Positions 37,226 through 59,434 of a DNA stretch of 64,000 bases are shown here, one piece after another; position 1 is the first letter of the stretch, and each line of letters begins with the position of its first letter. The translations under genes and the position numbers were made by a program. The stretch is from contig NZ_CAMFLA010000003.1 of the NCBI RefSeq assembly GCF_945957525.1, forward strand, positions 124,001 to 188,000. Reading direction: 5' to 3'. Under the pieces are notes generated by a model, which had not been told where the DNA came from, ran no database searches, and saw only the letters and a program-made list of their open reading frames with translations. Source of the stretch: an uncultured Aquitalea sp. Lineage in GTDB: Bacteria; Pseudomonadota; Gammaproteobacteria; Burkholderiales; Chromobacteriaceae.

Positions 37226-39829
37226 GTGTTACGCCATCTGAGCCGTCGCGCCGGCAACCAGCTGTGGCTGCTCGCCATTCTCATGGCGGCCGCCCTGCTG
37301 GTGGTGGCCATGCTGTACCAGCGGCAACAATCCGAAATGCAGCGGCTTGCCCAGCAAGGCGAGGACAATGTCGTCTGGGTGTATTCCCAGCTGGGCATCG
37401 ACTACTACCGCACCCAGGGCGCGGCCCGGGTGGCGGTGGCCACCGGTCGGACGGCCGATCTGGACGAGCTCAAACTGCGCTACGACATTCTGGTGTCGCG
37501 GGTGAACCTGCTGCAGCAATACCGCTACAGCCTGCTGTTCAAGGATCTCGACTGGTACAACAAGCAGATCCTGCCGCTGGCGGCGCTGATCCGCCGCACT
37601 GACGACGCGCTGGCAGGCAAGGACGGTTACTTTGACAGGCCTGCCGCCGAAGCGCTGCAACGAAATCTGGACGGCGTGGTGGAGAGTGTGCGCGAGCTGA
37701 CTGTGGGCGCCAACACCCGCCTGACCGAACAGGCCAACCTCAGCAATCGCAGCATCCGCAACATCAACGCCACCGTGGCGGCCACCGCGGCCGGCCTGAT
37801 GGTGATCGCCGTGCTGATTGCCGCGCTGGCGTATCGCAACCTGTCCATCAGCGAACGGCGGCGCGAAGAAGCCGAGGCCCTCAGCCGGCAGCTGGACAAG
37901 GCGCTGGCGCAGGCTGAAGCGGCCAGCGAGGCCAAGGGCGCCTTTCTGGCCAATATGAGCCATGAAATCCGCACGCCGATGAACGGCATCATCGGCATGA
38001 CAGAGCTGGTGCTGGATACGGATCTCAATGACGAGCAGCGTGAATACGTCGAACTGGTGAAGTCTTCGGCCGACGCCTTGCTCATCATCATCAACGACAT
38101 CCTGGACTTCTCCAAGATCGAGGCCGGCAAGATGGAGGTGGAAAACGTCGCCTTTTCCTTGCGCAGCCTGATCAGTCAGACGCTTTATCCCTTCACGCTC
38201 AAGGCGGGCGACCAGCTCGAAGTGATCTGCCGAGTGTGTCCCCAATTGCCGGACCGGCTGATGGCCGACCCCTCGCGCCTGCGGCAGGTGCTGAACAATC
38301 TGCTGGGCAACGCGCTGAAATTCACCAAGCAAGGCGAAGTGGTGCTGAGCGTGGACGGCGAAGAAACCCCGCAGGGGCTGAAGCTGAGCTTCTCTGTGCG
38401 CGACACCGGCATCGGCATCGATCCAGAAAAACAGAAGCTGATCTTTGATGCCTTTTCCCAAGCGGATTCCAGCACGACGCGTCGTTACGGCGGCACGGGC
38501 CTTGGCCTGACCATTACGCAAAAACTGGTGCGCCTGATGGGCGGCGACATTGGCGTGGACAGCGAGCCGGGCAAGGGGGCGGATTTCCGGTTCACTTTGC
38601 CCGTAGCGCTGGCCGACCCGCAGCCTGCGCTGCCGGACGCGGCTGATCTGGTCGGCGTCGAAGTGCTGGTGGCCGACGACAATCCCACCAATCGCAGTTG
38701 GCTGGCCTCCTTGCTGGGCAACTGGCGGATGCGGCCAACGCTGGCGGCCGACGGTTTCGAGGCGCTGGCCTTGCTGCGCGAGCGGGAGTTTCCCTTGATC
38801 CTGCTGGATGGCCACATGCCGGGCATGTCCGGCTTCGATGTGGCGCAGCAGATTCAGGAGGCCCATCGGCGCGCCGCCGTGATCATGCTGACTTCCTCCG
38901 GCGAGCGCGGCGACGCCGCGCGTTGCCAGGCGCTGGGCATTCGCGGTTATCTCACCAAGCCGGTGTCGCAGGATGAACTGCTCACCACCCTGCGTTTACT
39001 GCTGTCGGGCGAACAGAACGCGGCGGAGCAGCCGCTGGTCACGCGTCATACTGTGCGCGAACTGGACGGCAAGCTCCATATCCTGTTGGCCGAAGACAAT
39101 CTGGTGAACCAGAAGCTGGCGATGGCGATTCTGACCCGTCGAGGTTTTCAGGTCACCGTGGCGGAAAACGGTCAGAAGGCGCTGGACGCACTGGCGGCAG
39201 GCAATTTCGATCTGGTGCTGATGGATATGCAGATGCCGGTGATGGACGGGCTGGAGGCCACCCGCGCCCTGCGCGAGCGCGAGGCGGCAGGCGGCCTGCC
39301 TCACATGCCGGTGATCGCGTTGACCGCCAACGCCATGAACGGCGACCGTGAACGCTGCCTGGAAGCCGGCATGGACGGTTACGTCAGCAAGCCTATCGAT
39401 GCCGCGCGCACCTTTGATGAGATCGGCCGGGTACTGGGCATGGACAGCCTACTGGTGCCCCAGCCGATCACGGCCATGCCCCGGCAGGAAGAGCTGCTGT
39501 TTGATCGTGATCAGGCGGTGCGCAACTGTGACGGGGACGAGAGTTTCCTGCCCATCCTGTTGCAGGCTTTTGTCGGCGACAGCGGCAAGCGGCTGACGGA
39601 ATTGCGCAATCACTTGCAGGACGAGGATGTGGAGATTGCCGCCCGCGCCGCGCACTCATTGAAGGGCGCAGCTCTGTCCGCCGCCTCTCTGCCGCTGGCG
39701 GCAGAATGCAAGGAGCTGGAACTGGCCATCCGCGACCGCCGGCTGGACGACAGTCGCGCCATTCTCGCGCGGGTGGAGGAGCGGCATCAGGCACTGCTGG
39801 CGGTGCTGGAGCCGTATCTGGCGCAGTAA
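37226..39829 (+). CDS. Hybrid sensor histidine kinase with two receivers and HPt
   Basis: 867 residues, GTG start. Two membrane helices (about 13-30 and 184-203) bracket a helical periplasmic sensor. Then come HisKA with H246 in [16 protein letters not shown], HATPase with [15 protein letters not shown] and [18 protein letters not shown], a first receiver with D528 (LLDGHMPG), a second receiver with D667 ([11 protein letters not shown]) and a C-terminal HPt with H810 (AAHSLKGAA). All phosphorelay residues are present. No output regulator is encoded next to it. It is cotranscribed with the small molybdopterin-fold protein. Confidence 0.93.
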
Positions 39830-39879: not shown

Positions 39880-40091
39880 AGGCCTGCGACAGCGGGCCTT
39901 CAGGCCGAAGGCAAAGTCATTGGGTGAGATTCAGCAGGGCCCCGCAAAGGCGGGTCTCCCGGCTTCACTGATTGATTCCGCAGCCTTCCCATAGGCTGCC
40001 AATCCCCCACCCTTACCCTGCCAGGGAACCTCGTTTTCTGACCCCAAAGCGAGCGGGGGCGATAATCCGCAGGCCCGCGACAGCTGGCCTT
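39880..40091. repeat. Structured dispersed element, copy 1, with 21-nt flanking direct repeats
   Basis: The left flank at 39880-39900 and the right flank at 40071-40091 are 21-nt direct repeats with two mismatches (AGGCC, GCGACAGC and GGCCTT shared). The 170-nt interior aligns with copy 2 at 49081-49254 from its first bases (CAGGC) onward. The best conserved part is 39917-40053, exactly as long (137 nt) as in copy 2. It contains hairpins CCCGC-AAAG-GCGGG and CTCGTTTT with AAAGCGAG. It lies between the convergent histidine kinase and modE genes. Confidence 0.85.
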
Positions 40092-40123: not shown

Positions 40124-40945
40124 TCAGGCCGGCACGCCCAGAATCACGCTGGACGCCTTGAACAAGGCGATGACCCGAGCGCCAAGGCCAAGACCCAGCG
40201 CGGCGCAGCTTTCATTGGTGACGATGGCCGCCACGGCGCCGCCGTCGTCCAGATCCAGCACCACCTCGGTATTCACTGCGCCGGGCACGATGCGGCTGAC
40301 CGCGCCGGCCAGCTGATTGCGCGCGGAAAAGCGCGTGCCGCCTTCCGGCAGGGCCAGAATGATGGAGGAGGACTTGATCAGCGCAAACACCTCCGCCCCC
40401 GGTGTCAATCCCAGGCTTTCCGCGCTGTCGTGGGTGACGATGGCCGTCAGTCGCAAACCGCTGGCGGTTTCCAGCGTGATTTCATCGTTCACCGCGCCGG
40501 CCGTTACTGCCGCCACCTTGCCCAGAAACTGGTTTCTCGCGCTGGTTTTCATCCCCATTCTCCTGATCAGGACATAGTCGTCGGCCATGCTTTCCGCTTG
40601 CAGGGCTAGTTGTTCGATGAAGCGCTGGTGCGCCGCGTGCAGGCGGCGATAGTTGTCCACCAGTTGCGCGCCGCGCGCGGTCAGGCGGGTGCCGCCGCCG
40701 CCCTTGCCGCCGGTCAGGCGCTCTACCAGCGGCTCGCCGGCCAGATTGTTCATGGCGTCGATGCCGTCCCAGGCGGCCTTGTAGCTGATGCCCACCGCCT
40801 TGGCAGCCTGAGTGATGGAGCCTCGCTCGCCGATGCTGGCCAGCAGCGCCATGCGGCCGTGGCCGCCAAAGGCGGCGCCGCCCAGCGTCATGGACAGCGA
40901 GCCGCTGAGCCCGAACGCCGGTTTGTTCTGTTTGTTGTCAGGCAT
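40124..40945 (-). CDS. modE: Molybdate-responsive regulator ModE
   Basis: 273 residues. The N-terminal winged helix (about 28-90) reads MALLASIGERGSITQAAKAVGISYKAAWDGIDAMNNLAGEPLVERLTGGKGGGGTRLTARGAQLV, the ModE DNA-binding signature. Two Mop/TOBE domains follow, each with a SARNQ core (TSARNQFLGKVAAVTAGAVNDEI and FSARNQLAGAVSRIVPGAVNTEV), which bind molybdate. It overlaps modC by 8 nt as the last gene of modA-modB-modC-modE and should repress the operon at the box upstream of modA. Confidence 0.94.
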   Translation of the reverse strand: MPDNKQNKPAFGLSGSLSMTLGGAAFGGHGRMALLASIGERGSITQAAKAVGISYKAAWDGIDAMNNLAGEPLVERLTGGKGGGGTRLTARGAQLVDNYRRLHAAHQRFIEQLALQAESMADDYVLIRRMGMKTSARNQFLGKVAAVTAGAVNDEITLETASGLRLTAIVTHDSAESLGLTPGAEVFALIKSSSIILALPEGGTRFSARNQLAGAVSRIVPGAVNTEVVLDLDDGGAVAAIVTNESCAALGLGLGARVIALFKASSVILGVPA

Positions 40946-41654
40946 GGGATGACGCTCCTTGTGGGCTGGCGGCCAGTGCCTGCGCGGCGGGGGTGTCCAC
41001 ACGGCCGTCGCGCAGCAATACCACCTGTTGGCCGAAGACGGCGGCGTCTTCCGGGTCATGCGTGATCAACACCATCGGCACCCGCAGTTCGCGCTGCAGC
41101 CGGTCCAGTTCTGCGCGCATGGTGTCGCGCAGCGCCTGATCCAGCGCAGCGAAGGGCTCGTCCAGCAGGATTGCTTGAGGGCGCGCCACCAGCGCGCGCG
41201 CCAGCGCCGCTCGCTGGCGTTGCCCGCCAGACAGTTGCTCAGGGTAGAGGTCGCCCGTGCGGGCGATGTCCAGCGCCGTCAGCCAGTGCTCCACTGCCGG
41301 ATCCCGACTGCCTTTGGCGGCGTTGAACAGGCCGCGCCGCAAGGGGAAGGCGATGTTCTGCCGCACGGTAAGATGGGGAAACAGCGCGTAATCCTGAAAC
41401 AGATAGGCGAGCCCGCGTTGTTGCGGAGGCAGATTGACGCCGCTGGCTGAGTCGAACAGCGTGCGGCCATCCAGGCGGATGTGGCCGGCGTCCGGCGTCA
41501 TCAATCCGGCCATGGCTTTGAGGGTCAGGCTTTTGCCGGCGCCGGAAGGGCCGAGAATGACGACCCGTTGGCAATCGGTGCGCAAGGCGACGTCCAGCTG
41601 GAAGCCTTGCCCGTCCTTGCCCAGCGCCCGCCGAATGTGGAGGTCCAGCTTCAT
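40938..41654 (-). CDS. modC: Molybdate ABC transporter ATPase ModC
   Basis: 238 residues, shorter than the usual 350, because the C-terminal molybdate-binding TOBE domain is absent. Walker A is GPSGAGKS, the Q-loop FQDYALFPHLTVRQNI, the signature LSGGQRQR and Walker B AILLDEPFAALD. It energises molybdate uptake with ModA and ModB. The sensing role of the missing domain may be covered by the two Mop domains of ModE next to it. Confidence 0.93.
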   Translation of the reverse strand: MKLDLHIRRALGKDGQGFQLDVALRTDCQRVVILGPSGAGKSLTLKAMAGLMTPDAGHIRLDGRTLFDSASGVNLPPQQRGLAYLFQDYALFPHLTVRQNIAFPLRRGLFNAAKGSRDPAVEHWLTALDIARTGDLYPEQLSGGQRQRAALARALVARPQAILLDEPFAALDQALRDTMRAELDRLQRELRVPMVLITHDPEDAAVFGQQVVLLRDGRVDTPAAQALAASPQGASSHA

Positions 41655-47509: not shown

Positions 47510-49036
47510 ATGGCCGTTATCCGTCAGGATGATTTCATTCAAAGCATCGCCGATGCTTTCCAGTACATCAGTTGCTACCACCCCAAGGACTACATCGACG
47601 CGCTTTACCAGGCGTATCTCAAAGAAGAGAGCGTTGCCGCCAAGGACGCCATGGCGCAGATTCTGGTGAACAGCCGCATGTGCGCCGAAGGCCGTCGTCC
47701 CATCTGCCAGGATACCGGCATCGCCGTGGTGTTCCTGAAAGTGGGCATGAACGTGCAGTGGGACGCCGCGCTGTCCGTGCAGGAAATGGTGAACGAAGGC
47801 GTGCGTCGCGCCTACAACAATCCTGACAACAAGCTGCGCGCCTCCGTGCTGCTGGACCCGGCCGGCAAGCGCCAGAACAGCAAGGACAACACGCCGGCCG
47901 TGGTGCATTTTGAAATCGTCGAGGGCGACGGCGTGGAAGTGATCTGCGCGGCCAAGGGTGGCGGTTCGGAAAACAAATCCAAGTTCTATGCGCTCAACCC
48001 GTCCGACAGCATCGTCGACTGGGTGCTGAAAACCGTGCCCACCATGGGCGCGGGCTGGTGTCCGCCGGGCATTCTGGGCATCGGCATCGGCGGCACGCCG
48101 GAAAAGGCCATGTTGCTGGCCAAGGAAAGCCTGATGGATCACGTGGACATCCACGAACTGAAGGCCAAGGCCGACAGCGGCGCCGAACTCAGCCGTGTGG
48201 AGCAGTTGCGTCTGGAAATCTACGAGAAGGTGAACGCGCTGGGCATTGGCGCACAGGGCCTGGGCGGCCTCACCACCGTGCTGGACGTGAAGATCATGGA
48301 CTATCCGACGCACGCAGCCAGCCTGCCGGTCGCCATGATCCCCAACTGCGCCGCCACGCGTCACATTCACTTCCATCTGGACGGCAGCGGCCCGGCCAAG
48401 CTGGAAGCCCCGCGCCTGGAAGACTGGCCGGACATCACCTACGACGCCTCCTCCGGTCGCCGCGTGGATCTGGACAAGATCACCAAGGAAGAAGTGGCCA
48501 GCTGGAAGCCGGGCGAAGTACTGCTGCTCAACGGCAAGATCCTCACCGGTCGCGACGCTGCGCACAAGCGCATGGTGGACATGCTGAACAAGGGCGAGAA
48601 GCTGCCGGTGGACTTCACCAACCGCTTCATCTACTACGTCGGCCCGGTGGATCCGGTGCGCGACGAAGTGGTCGGCCCGGCCGGCCCCACCACCGCTACC
48701 CGCATGGACAAGTTCACCCGTCAGATGCTGGAACAGACCGGTCTGTTGGGCATGATCGGCAAGGCCGAGCGCGGCCCGGCAGCCATTGAAGCCATCAAGG
48801 ACAACAAGGCGGTGTACCTGATGGCCGTGGGCGGTTCCGCCTATCTGGTGTCCAAGGCCATCAAGGCCTCCACCGTAGTGGGTTTTGCCGACCTGGGCAT
48901 GGAAGCCATCTACGAGTTCGAGGTGAAAGACATGCCGGTTACCGTGGCGGTGGATGCCTGTGGCACCGCCGTGCACACCACCGGCCCGGCCGAGTGGCGC
49001 GTCAAGATCGGCAAGATTCCGGTCAACGCCGGCTGA
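47510..49036 (+). CDS. fumA: Class I (iron-sulfur) fumarate hydratase
   Basis: 508 residues with both Fumerase and Fumerase_C parts in one chain, as in FumA/FumB. The [4Fe-4S] cysteines are in RPICQDTGIAVVFLK, in MIPNCAATRHIHFHLDG, and in the AGWCPPGILGIGIGGTPEKAMLLAKE segment. GLGGLTTVLDVKI and VGPAGPTTATRMDKFTRQMLEQTGLLGMIGKAERG are conserved. It interconverts fumarate and malate in the TCA cycle. It is preceded by a terminator and followed by a structured repeat element. Confidence 0.95.
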   Translation: MAVIRQDDFIQSIADAFQYISCYHPKDYIDALYQAYLKEESVAAKDAMAQILVNSRMCAEGRRPICQDTGIAVVFLKVGMNVQWDAALSVQEMVNEGVRRAYNNPDNKLRASVLLDPAGKRQNSKDNTPAVVHFEIVEGDGVEVICAAKGGGSENKSKFYALNPSDSIVDWVLKTVPTMGAGWCPPGILGIGIGGTPEKAMLLAKESLMDHVDIHELKAKADSGAELSRVEQLRLEIYEKVNALGIGAQGLGGLTTVLDVKIMDYPTHAASLPVAMIPNCAATRHIHFHLDGSGPAKLEAPRLEDWPDITYDASSGRRVDLDKITKEEVASWKPGEVLLLNGKILTGRDAAHKRMVDMLNKGEKLPVDFTNRFIYYVGPVDPVRDEVVGPAGPTTATRMDKFTRQMLEQTGLLGMIGKAERGPAAIEAIKDNKAVYLMAVGGSAYLVSKAIKASTVVGFADLGMEAIYEFEVKDMPVTVAVDACGTAVHTTGPAEWRVKIGKIPVNAG

Positions 49037-49059
49037 TGCTTCGGCCAACATGACACGAC

Positions 49060-49275
49060 AAACGCCCGGCATGCCGGGCGCAGGCTGCTGACAACATCAT
49101 TGGGCGAGTTTCTGCAGGACCCGGCAAAACCGGGCCTTCCAACTTGCGTATTGATTCGGCAGCCTTCCCGTTGATTTCCAATCCCCCCGCCCTTGCTCTG
49201 CAAGGGAGCCTCGCTTTCCGATCAGAAAGCGAGAGGATGGTGTCAATAAGCTGAAAACGCCCGGCATGCCGGGCG
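49060..49275. repeat. Structured dispersed element, copy 2, with identical 21-nt flanking direct repeats
   Basis: The 21-nt hairpin sequence at 49060-49080 (AAACGCCCGG...CCGGGCG) recurs exactly at 49255-49275. Only the right copy is followed by TTTTC and acts as a terminator. The 174-nt interior aligns with copy 1 from its first bases (CAGGC); the core is 49097-49233. Hairpins are CCCGG-CAAAA-CCGGG, CCCTTG-CTCTG-CAAGGG and CTCGCTTT with AAAGCGAG. It lies between the convergent fumarase and isochorismatase-like genes. Confidence 0.88.
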
Positions 49276-49280
49276 TTTTC
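49253..49280. terminator. Bidirectional terminator between fumarase and hydrolase genes
   Basis: GAAAACGCCCGG pairs with CCGGGCGTTTTC around CATG. A-rich on one side and T-rich on the other, it can stop transcription from both convergent genes. Confidence 0.9.
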
Positions 49281-49324
49281 TTTTGGCGACGGATGGCTGG
49301 CCGGAGAGCGAGCCGGGGCCGGTC

Positions 49325-49843
49325 TCAGAGCGCGTCGGCGCTTTGAACGATGGGCAGGCGCGGCGCCACGGCGTTGAGGGCGATGAGGTGGATCATCTGG
49401 CTGACCGTAGTGCAGCAGTCGGCGAGAATGCTCACCTTGTAGCCGGCGGCGGCGGGGGAAATGGCGGTGTGAGTGACGCAGTTCTGCGTCATCATGCCGC
49501 ACACCAGCAGCTCGTCCACGCCCAATTGGCGCAGGGTGGCTTCCAGCGCGGTGTCCAGGAAACTGTCGGCGAAATGCTTTACCACCACCGGGGCGTCGGG
49601 CGCAGCGGCCAGCACCTCGGCATGAATGGCTACGCCCTCGGTGCCGGCATTGAAGAAGGGAGAGATGCCGCGCGCCGGGTCGGCCACGTGTTGCACATGA
49701 ATCACCGGCACGCCCTTGGCGCGGGCTCGGCTGATGGCGGACAGTGTGTTGGCCAAGGCCTCTTCGGTGTTCCACAGCGGAAACGCGCCGCCGGGGAAGT
49801 AGTCGTTTTGCAGGTCGATGACGATCAGTGCCGGTTGGCTCAT
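49325..49843 (-). CDS. Isochorismatase-like cysteine hydrolase
   Basis: 172 residues. ALIVIDLQNDYFPGGAFPL with the catalytic Asp near residue 10, VVKHFADSFLDT with Lys near 90, and LLVCGMMTQNCVTHTAISPAAAGYKVSILADCCTT with the nucleophilic Cys in QNCV form the complete triad. Substrates in this family include nicotinamide, N-carbamoyl compounds and isochorismate. The start at 49841-49843 is set by the family. It is divergent from an AraC/GlxA-type regulator. Confidence 0.9.
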   Translation of the reverse strand: MSQPALIVIDLQNDYFPGGAFPLWNTEEALANTLSAISRARAKGVPVIHVQHVADPARGISPFFNAGTEGVAIHAEVLAAAPDAPVVVKHFADSFLDTALEATLRQLGVDELLVCGMMTQNCVTHTAISPAAAGYKVSILADCCTTVSQMIHLIALNAVAPRLPIVQSADAL

Positions 49844-49962
49844 GCTGCGCTCCTTGGGGGGTGAGGGTATGAGCGCATTGTGCCGCCCCTGTTGTTCGGC
49901 AACGAGTGGCCCGATTGCCAATTTGCGATAATATCGGGCCATTGTGTCGGAGGCTTGTCTGC

Positions 49963-59358: not shown

Positions 59359-59434
59359 CCAGTGCGAAACCGCCGAGAGGCGGTCTGCCAGGCGTGGTTG
59401 CCTGGTACTGATGAGCAGCCAAAGGACACAACAC

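Follow-up and report, generated by a model that had tools for sequence, protein, structure and literature searches.

The stretch of DNA that was analysed, 64,000 nt in length (the window), carries two copies of a short non-coding element, each of which lies between two alike hairpins. The explanation that best accounted for the findings as a whole, and that we regard as very probable, is that this element is a MITE with the ends of a clade of IS1182-family transposons, that its insertion duplicates a whole target hairpin, and that it would be moved in trans by a transposase of that clade. The element is a MITE in that it is short and without a transposase gene, has inverted ends, and occurs in many dispersed copies with target duplications.

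At copy 2, the 21-nt hairpin AAACGCCCGGCATGCCGGGCG was found on both sides of the element and was identical at 21/21 positions, as an earlier note on this DNA had claimed; the T run TTTTCTTTT follows the right hairpin and there is none after the left. That note had also described interiors of 170 and 174 nt, both starting with CAGGC and both lying in convergent intergenic spaces, and each of these statements was confirmed. The left hairpin of copy 2 passes directly into CAGGC, and copy 1 lies between a sensor-kinase-like ORF that ends at 39829 and a convergent minus-strand ORF at 40124-41059 (names from a reading of the translations). Duplication of the hairpin at both copies, also claimed, was exact for copy 2 and inexact for copy 1. 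The coordinates of all features are given in Table 1.

Table 1. Features of the two MITE copies and of the genes that flank copy 2, in window coordinates
Feature	Coordinates	Strand	Basis
Left terminator hairpin copy (putative target duplication)	49060..49080		exact 21-nt repeat of 49255-49275; no T run after
MITE copy 2, 174 nt, ends CAGGCTGCTGACAA ... TGTCAATAAGCTG(A)	49081..49254	+	profile match, model positions 1-171, 161.9 bits
Copy 2 left terminal inverted repeat CAGGCTGCTGACAAC (consensus CAGGCTGCTGACAAA)	49081..49095	+	alignment of 50 copies
Copy 2 right terminal inverted repeat, reverse complement CAGCTTATTGACACC (consensus CAGATTATTGACAAA)	49239..49253	-	alignment of 50 copies
Right terminator hairpin copy, then TTTTCTTTT	49255..49275		exact 21-nt repeat of 49060-49080
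Copy 1 left hairpin AGGCCTGCGACAGCGGGCCTT	39880..39900		19/21 positions same as 40071-40091
MITE copy 1, 170 nt, farther from consensus	39901..40070	+	profile match, 117.3 bits
Copy 1 right hairpin AGGCCCGCGACAGCTGGCCTT	40071..40091		19/21 positions same as 39880-39900
Class I fumarate hydratase-like gene, its terminator the putative target of copy 2	47510..49036	+	translation reading; 94-95% identical relative in each of 9 sister species
Isochorismatase-like gene, convergent, other side of copy 2	49325..49942	-	translation reading

The proposal that the element encodes no protein was upheld, in that it has no ORF of its own of at least 120 aa; the sole ORF of this length that overlaps copy 2 is a minus-strand frame entering from neighbouring sequence. 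A scan of positions 48900-49450 with a simple consensus terminator pattern found no site, so the label of terminator at copy 2 rests on the hairpin, the T run and the position. Rfam, applied at gathering scores, gave no match at the element and no group IIC intron match. Elsewhere in the window, at 59362-59424 on the plus strand, a type II hammerhead ribozyme was recorded at 71.1 bits (gathering score of 37).

A search of the genome of origin returned 18 match rows, one of which was the opposite strand of a hairpin. Dispersed matches, 9 to 37 per genome, were present in 10/10 genomes of the genus that were searched, and at E ≤0.001 matches were present in at least 32 of 61 genomes of the bacterial family and in 5/10 genera; these family-wide counts are lower bounds, few candidates having been scored per genome. 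The plasmids and phages searched gave no match. From at least about 150 places in the genus with MITE matches, 60 further stretches were taken, and a profile search over 104 loci (six loci that were not separate element copies were left out) produced 105 hits. After L008 (two partial hits) and L052 (the same place as L039) were dropped, 102 copies were retained, 97 of them near full length.

For these 97 copies, the 45 nt to the left and the 45 nt to the right of the element were compared by local alignment score. The mean score of own pairs was 14.5 compared to 6.81 after re-pairing (sd 0.20, maximum 7.65 in 10,000 random re-pairings), and scores of at least 15 were reached by 52/97 own pairs as against 0.84% of the 9312 mismatched pairs. 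In the high-scoring copies the common stretch abuts the element within a few bases on both sides and is a hairpin, different at each site. These site-specific hairpins are in agreement with the earlier proposal that the element inserts at terminator hairpins and makes an unusually long target duplication. The expectation that every copy would be flanked by such repeats was borne out in part: the score was at least 12 in 61/97 copies and below 12, with no clear repeat, in 36/97, and in the genome of origin just 4 of 13 near-full copies reached 12. The 36 copies are read as decayed, deletion or another mode of insertion being possible. Because sister species share inherited insertions, the 97 copies represent fewer independent events. 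Repeats of 16-29 nt that carry no more than one mismatch were still readable in 41/97 copies. At least five outermost bases were paired, under a strict test, in only 11 of these 41, a low proportion because many repeats, including that of the window copy, overrun through A/T or the longest-match rule.

Among the 61 copies with a flank score of at least 12, four or more T within 8 nt were found after the right hairpin in 51 and after the left hairpin in none (0/61); a left hairpin without T run and a right hairpin with one are therefore general among the copies. An A run before the left hairpin was less clear (34/61, versus 22/61 before the right hairpin).

Sites that lack the element and have a single hairpin, anticipated in the earlier note for related strains, were found at two loci. 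The region downstream of the fumarate hydratase gene was compared in all 10 species of the genus, and one hairpin without an element was present in 7/9 sister species (scan for stems of at least 7). One species (G009) has two such fumarate hydratase loci; both have a single hairpin, and at one of them the downstream neighbour is different. In two others, G005 and G008 (L228 and L231), the fumarate hydratase terminator holds an element, as it does in the window. Identity between the elements at this terminator was 0.69-0.74 for the window copy versus those of G005 and G008, and 0.83 between the latter two; from these values the window insertion is taken, although this is not proven, to be separate from theirs. 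At the G005 and G008 site the two hairpins differ in sequence and both still fold, as if each had been kept.

At the second locus, beside LysR-type and aminotransferase genes, G002 carries the element between two hairpins of identical sequence, and in 9/9 other species the element is absent and a single hairpin is present; in the genome of origin a second, unrelated inverted repeat, with a loop beyond the reach of the scan, was noticed by eye about 40 nt further on. G002 and G006 are closely alike around the hairpin, and the insertion joint is therefore directly readable. The alternative that a hairpin had been captured once and then carried along, which had also been put forward, does not fit, because the hairpins vary by site and match the lone hairpin of the empty second locus. 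In the copies with a readable duplication the hairpin is the target, and it is duplicated over its length, with a sequence that differs from site to site.

Hairpin duplications were also found around autonomous IS. A search for the PF13751 transposase domain was carried out over 300 genomes drawn from the order, and 30 loci were fetched (L141-L170). The locus L141, from genome G234, has element-like ends on both sides, CAGGTTGATGACGAA and CAGATTGATGACAAA, with a duplicated hairpin outside them; the remaining 29/30 loci of the order had no matching ends on both sides. At five loci (L143, L148, L153, L156 and L157) other elements of the IS1182 type have GCTGTAGAAAAACCC-like ends and apparently lie beside GTTAG/CTAAC cores, which we take to resemble integron attC sites. 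In G234, of the same order, all 13 IS copies among the matches listed were examined (13/28 candidates scored). An exact hairpin duplication of 19-28 nt was present in 12 of these 13 listed copies, each hairpin having its own sequence, and the outermost bases were paired in 11/12 duplications. There was no duplication at L176 (G234:C1), where the two flanking hairpins differ and a second IS-like right end lies on the right. The IS transposases scored 494.4 and 434.9 bits, above the cut-off of 270 for the NCBIfam IS1182 model (NF033551).

The genome collection yielded 13 IS loci, 9 of which had both ends. Hairpin duplications of 22-24 nt, one with a mismatch, were present at L214-L218 and L224 (Burkholderia, Collimonas and Lentisphaera); L219 and L223 had just 14-15 nt repeats around short hairpins, and L225 had both ends and no duplication. 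Overall, 23 IS were assessed: 18 with a hairpin duplication of 19-28 nt, two with repeats of 14-15 nt and three without. In most of the IS copies that have a duplication, the two ends of the duplicated stretch pair with one another. A relative was present in 1026 plasmid records, and eight plasmid IS were taken from the 25 matches listed; in 8/8 the ends were 0-3 substitutions from the pattern and a hairpin repeat of 18-26 nt with at most one mismatch was present, the mismatch falling at the last base in 7/8. Their hosts were Rhizobium, Sphingobium, Aminobacter, Salinivibrio, Alkalihalophilus and Bacillus. A quick tree of 38 transposases placed those with such ends on a single branch with a support of 99; it used 38 of 43 transposases, L142, L151, L214, L247 and L249 having been lost at the ORF or similarity filter. 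L225, whose CAGAGTGTTGACAAA-type ends had missed the label pattern, fell on the same branch, and a long-branch warning was given for L170 and L225.

A model for IS1272 published by Wan et al. in 2017 offers two outcomes. Its pathway a, the one taken by IS1272, deletes the hairpin and its pathway b duplicates the whole hairpin (PMC5678879, Fig. 13), with no example of pathway b in the parts of that paper covered. As drawn in pathway b, two symmetric strand transfers on a hairpin target would leave a hairpin duplication; the T run downstream would stay with the right hairpin copy and be lost from the left one. It is conceivable, and we consider it unlikely without dismissing it, that the same family and partner have as their target a hairpin in single-stranded DNA, such as the lagging strand, instead of a duplex cruciform. 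Against this, a cruciform is the simplest substrate for two symmetric transfers that leave a duplication, as in the part of the model that depicts pathway b. The duplex cruciform is the target that we prefer. The findings suggest that in transposons of the IS1182 clade the choice of target may depend on the shape into which it folds and not on its sequence.

The MITE consensus is 173 nt in length (50 copies, 47 of the genus and 3 of other genera); it starts with CAGGCTGCTGACAAA on the left and reads CAGATTATTGACAAACCCC inwards from the right. The inverted ends are imperfect, CAGGCTGCTGACAAA and CAGATTATTGACAAA being alike at 11/15 positions, and all four differences are transitions. The interior contains hairpins, and the fold of the window copy had a z of -6.06. 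This strong predicted fold, together with one stem pair that was changed on both sides in 20/50 sequences, is what a small or regulatory RNA gene between two terminators, spread by duplication, might also present. We judge such a gene very improbable, given the 9 to 37 dispersed matches per genome, the inverted ends, the target duplications, the lack of an Rfam match at gathering scores and the small covariation support (term -0.48; 3/20 pairs changed on both sides). No RNA function is claimed for the MITE because the interior covariation is weak, although it may have a role as RNA in addition to its mobility.

It is scarcely credible that the hairpins are instead part of a REP/BIME- or ERIC-like element and stay alike through gene conversion, with no target duplication: hairpins do flank many copies and the element does fold strongly (z -6.06), but the hairpin varies per site, at the G002 locus it equals the lone hairpin of element-free relatives, and autonomous IS with the same end type show the same duplications.

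The ends of the IS1182 clade agreed with those of the MITE at 12-14 of 15 positions on the left and 11-13 of 15 on the right, and the end of a B. dolosa IS1182 element agreed with the MITE left consensus at 14/15. As a control, ten other IS at their best register reached 9-11 on the left and 7-10 on the right (of 15). A CTAG-flanked decayed IS of the genome of origin reached 12/15 on the left, which equals the G234 IS, and 10/15 on the right, so end similarity alone does not decide the partner; the putative match between the MITE and the IS1182 clade is decided by the ends plus the hairpin duplication together. Movement by another type of IS such as the CTAG-flanked L046-L047, with hairpin duplications of some other origin, has in its favour the 12/15 left end and a place in the same genome, but is highly implausible, since L046 has CTAG on both sides, agrees at just 10/15 on the right and is without the TGACAAA motif, and since duplicated hairpins are common around IS of the IS1182 clade.

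With movement in trans by an IS1182-type transposase as the favoured reading, the statement in the earlier note that no named family has these features needs amendment: the target and the duplication had been described correctly, the need for machinery in trans had been proposed, and the ends and the duplication match an IS1182-family clade. When two MITE copies were compared with three IS of the clade, 14 DNA matches of 11-20 nt were found (E ≥0.008), 11 of them at the ends; the match with the highest score lay in the interior and appears to be due to chance.

The 10 genomes of the genus, some of which are drafts, yielded no IS1182 transposase whose ends match. An IS1182 transposase above the cut-off was present in 6/61 genomes of the family, and when their ends were inspected (those of G051 by pattern) only the G042:C78 copy fitted. 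As this is the sole fitting IS of the family, the MITE may be at rest in the genus, or may be waiting for an incoming transposase. At L184:1080-3070 (G042:C78, same bacterial family), a hairpin, a MITE, the same hairpin, an autonomous IS1182 element and another hairpin follow one another; the two hairpins that flank this IS differ, and the stretch adjoins a LysR-type gene that by eye is like the one beside the G002 insertion.

Hits to PF05598 in the genus were tested as partners and rejected: the CAGGCTGTTGAAA-type ends of L046-L048 adjoin CTAG and not a hairpin, one such end having been seen in each of L047 and L048. L046 and L047 (G000:C15), both decayed IS copies, are separated by about 1.5 kb, and their ends agree with the MITE left end at 12/15. 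Presumably, IS of the L046-L048 type are IS5-like. L049, an IS1182 element with other ends, was also rejected.

On balance we lean, by a little, towards a broader reading. An entire clade of IS1182 transposases, in Pseudomonadota, Bacillota and Lentisphaerota, would read the foot of a cruciform, join to both 5' feet and duplicate hairpins of any sequence over a length set by the stem; its MITEs would in this way colonise terminators cheaply, each insertion making two terminators, separated by a spacer, out of one. If a DDE transposase reads shape, this would account for the finding of safe sites at gene ends without a sequence preference. The duplicating outcome, observed in natural genomes whose sister species have no element at the site, would pair with the deletion made by IS1272, as alternative pathways of one 2017 model (PMC5678879). 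Recognition of cruciforms becomes directly testable, and hairpins that extrude in living cells could be marked. Insertion of the MITE would also explain some doubled terminators between convergent genes.

REP and BIME sequences are intergenic palindromes next to gene ends, whose palindrome belongs to the element and is conserved from copy to copy. The hairpins that flank the MITE differ from these in that they vary per site, the palindrome apparently being the target and not the element. Group IIC introns comprise intron RNA domains and a reverse transcriptase; this identity was rejected, Rfam at gathering scores having given no intron match and the element being only 174 nt. Like MITEs in general (BOX, RUP, ERIC and MITEAba12), the window element is short and non-coding, with inverted ends and many copies; unlike them, it appears to have a hairpin as its target and to duplicate it over the whole length. 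Tables of IS give long repeats for some IS1182 members, and the duplication could therefore already be on record there.

The staphylococcal IS1272 and TnSha1, of the IS1182 family, are described in the covered parts of two papers as targeting hairpins with no sequence preference (PMC4923244, PMC5678879). Their target hairpins include five confirmed terminators, and the hairpin is deleted (Furi et al. 2016, PMC4923244, in part). In these same parts IS1272 removes the hairpin with no duplication (PMC4923244, PMC5678879), whereas at MITE sites the hairpin is duplicated. Palindromic targets are noted for other IS1182 members (Siguier 2015, as cited in the covered part of PMC4923244), and ISCaa15 (IS1182) is listed with 4-bp repeats in the portion of PMC3196728 covered. 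The passages covered of a 2024 review of MITEs mention no hairpin-duplicating case (PMC10969869), and in the literature searched, covered in part and including few subscription papers, no report of this MITE or of whole-hairpin duplication by IS1182 elements was recognised.

The closest likeness is to the IS1182 clade (NF033551) with CAG-YTG-TGACAAA-like ends, which shares with the MITE its ends, the duplication of the whole hairpin and intergenic hairpin sites; the window element differs in that it has no transposase, and its likeness at the DNA level is confined to stretches of 11-20 nt. Set beside these systems, the findings suggest that what is new is a MITE that selects its target, and duplicates it, according to the shape of a hairpin, and the duplicating outcome as seen in natural genomes.
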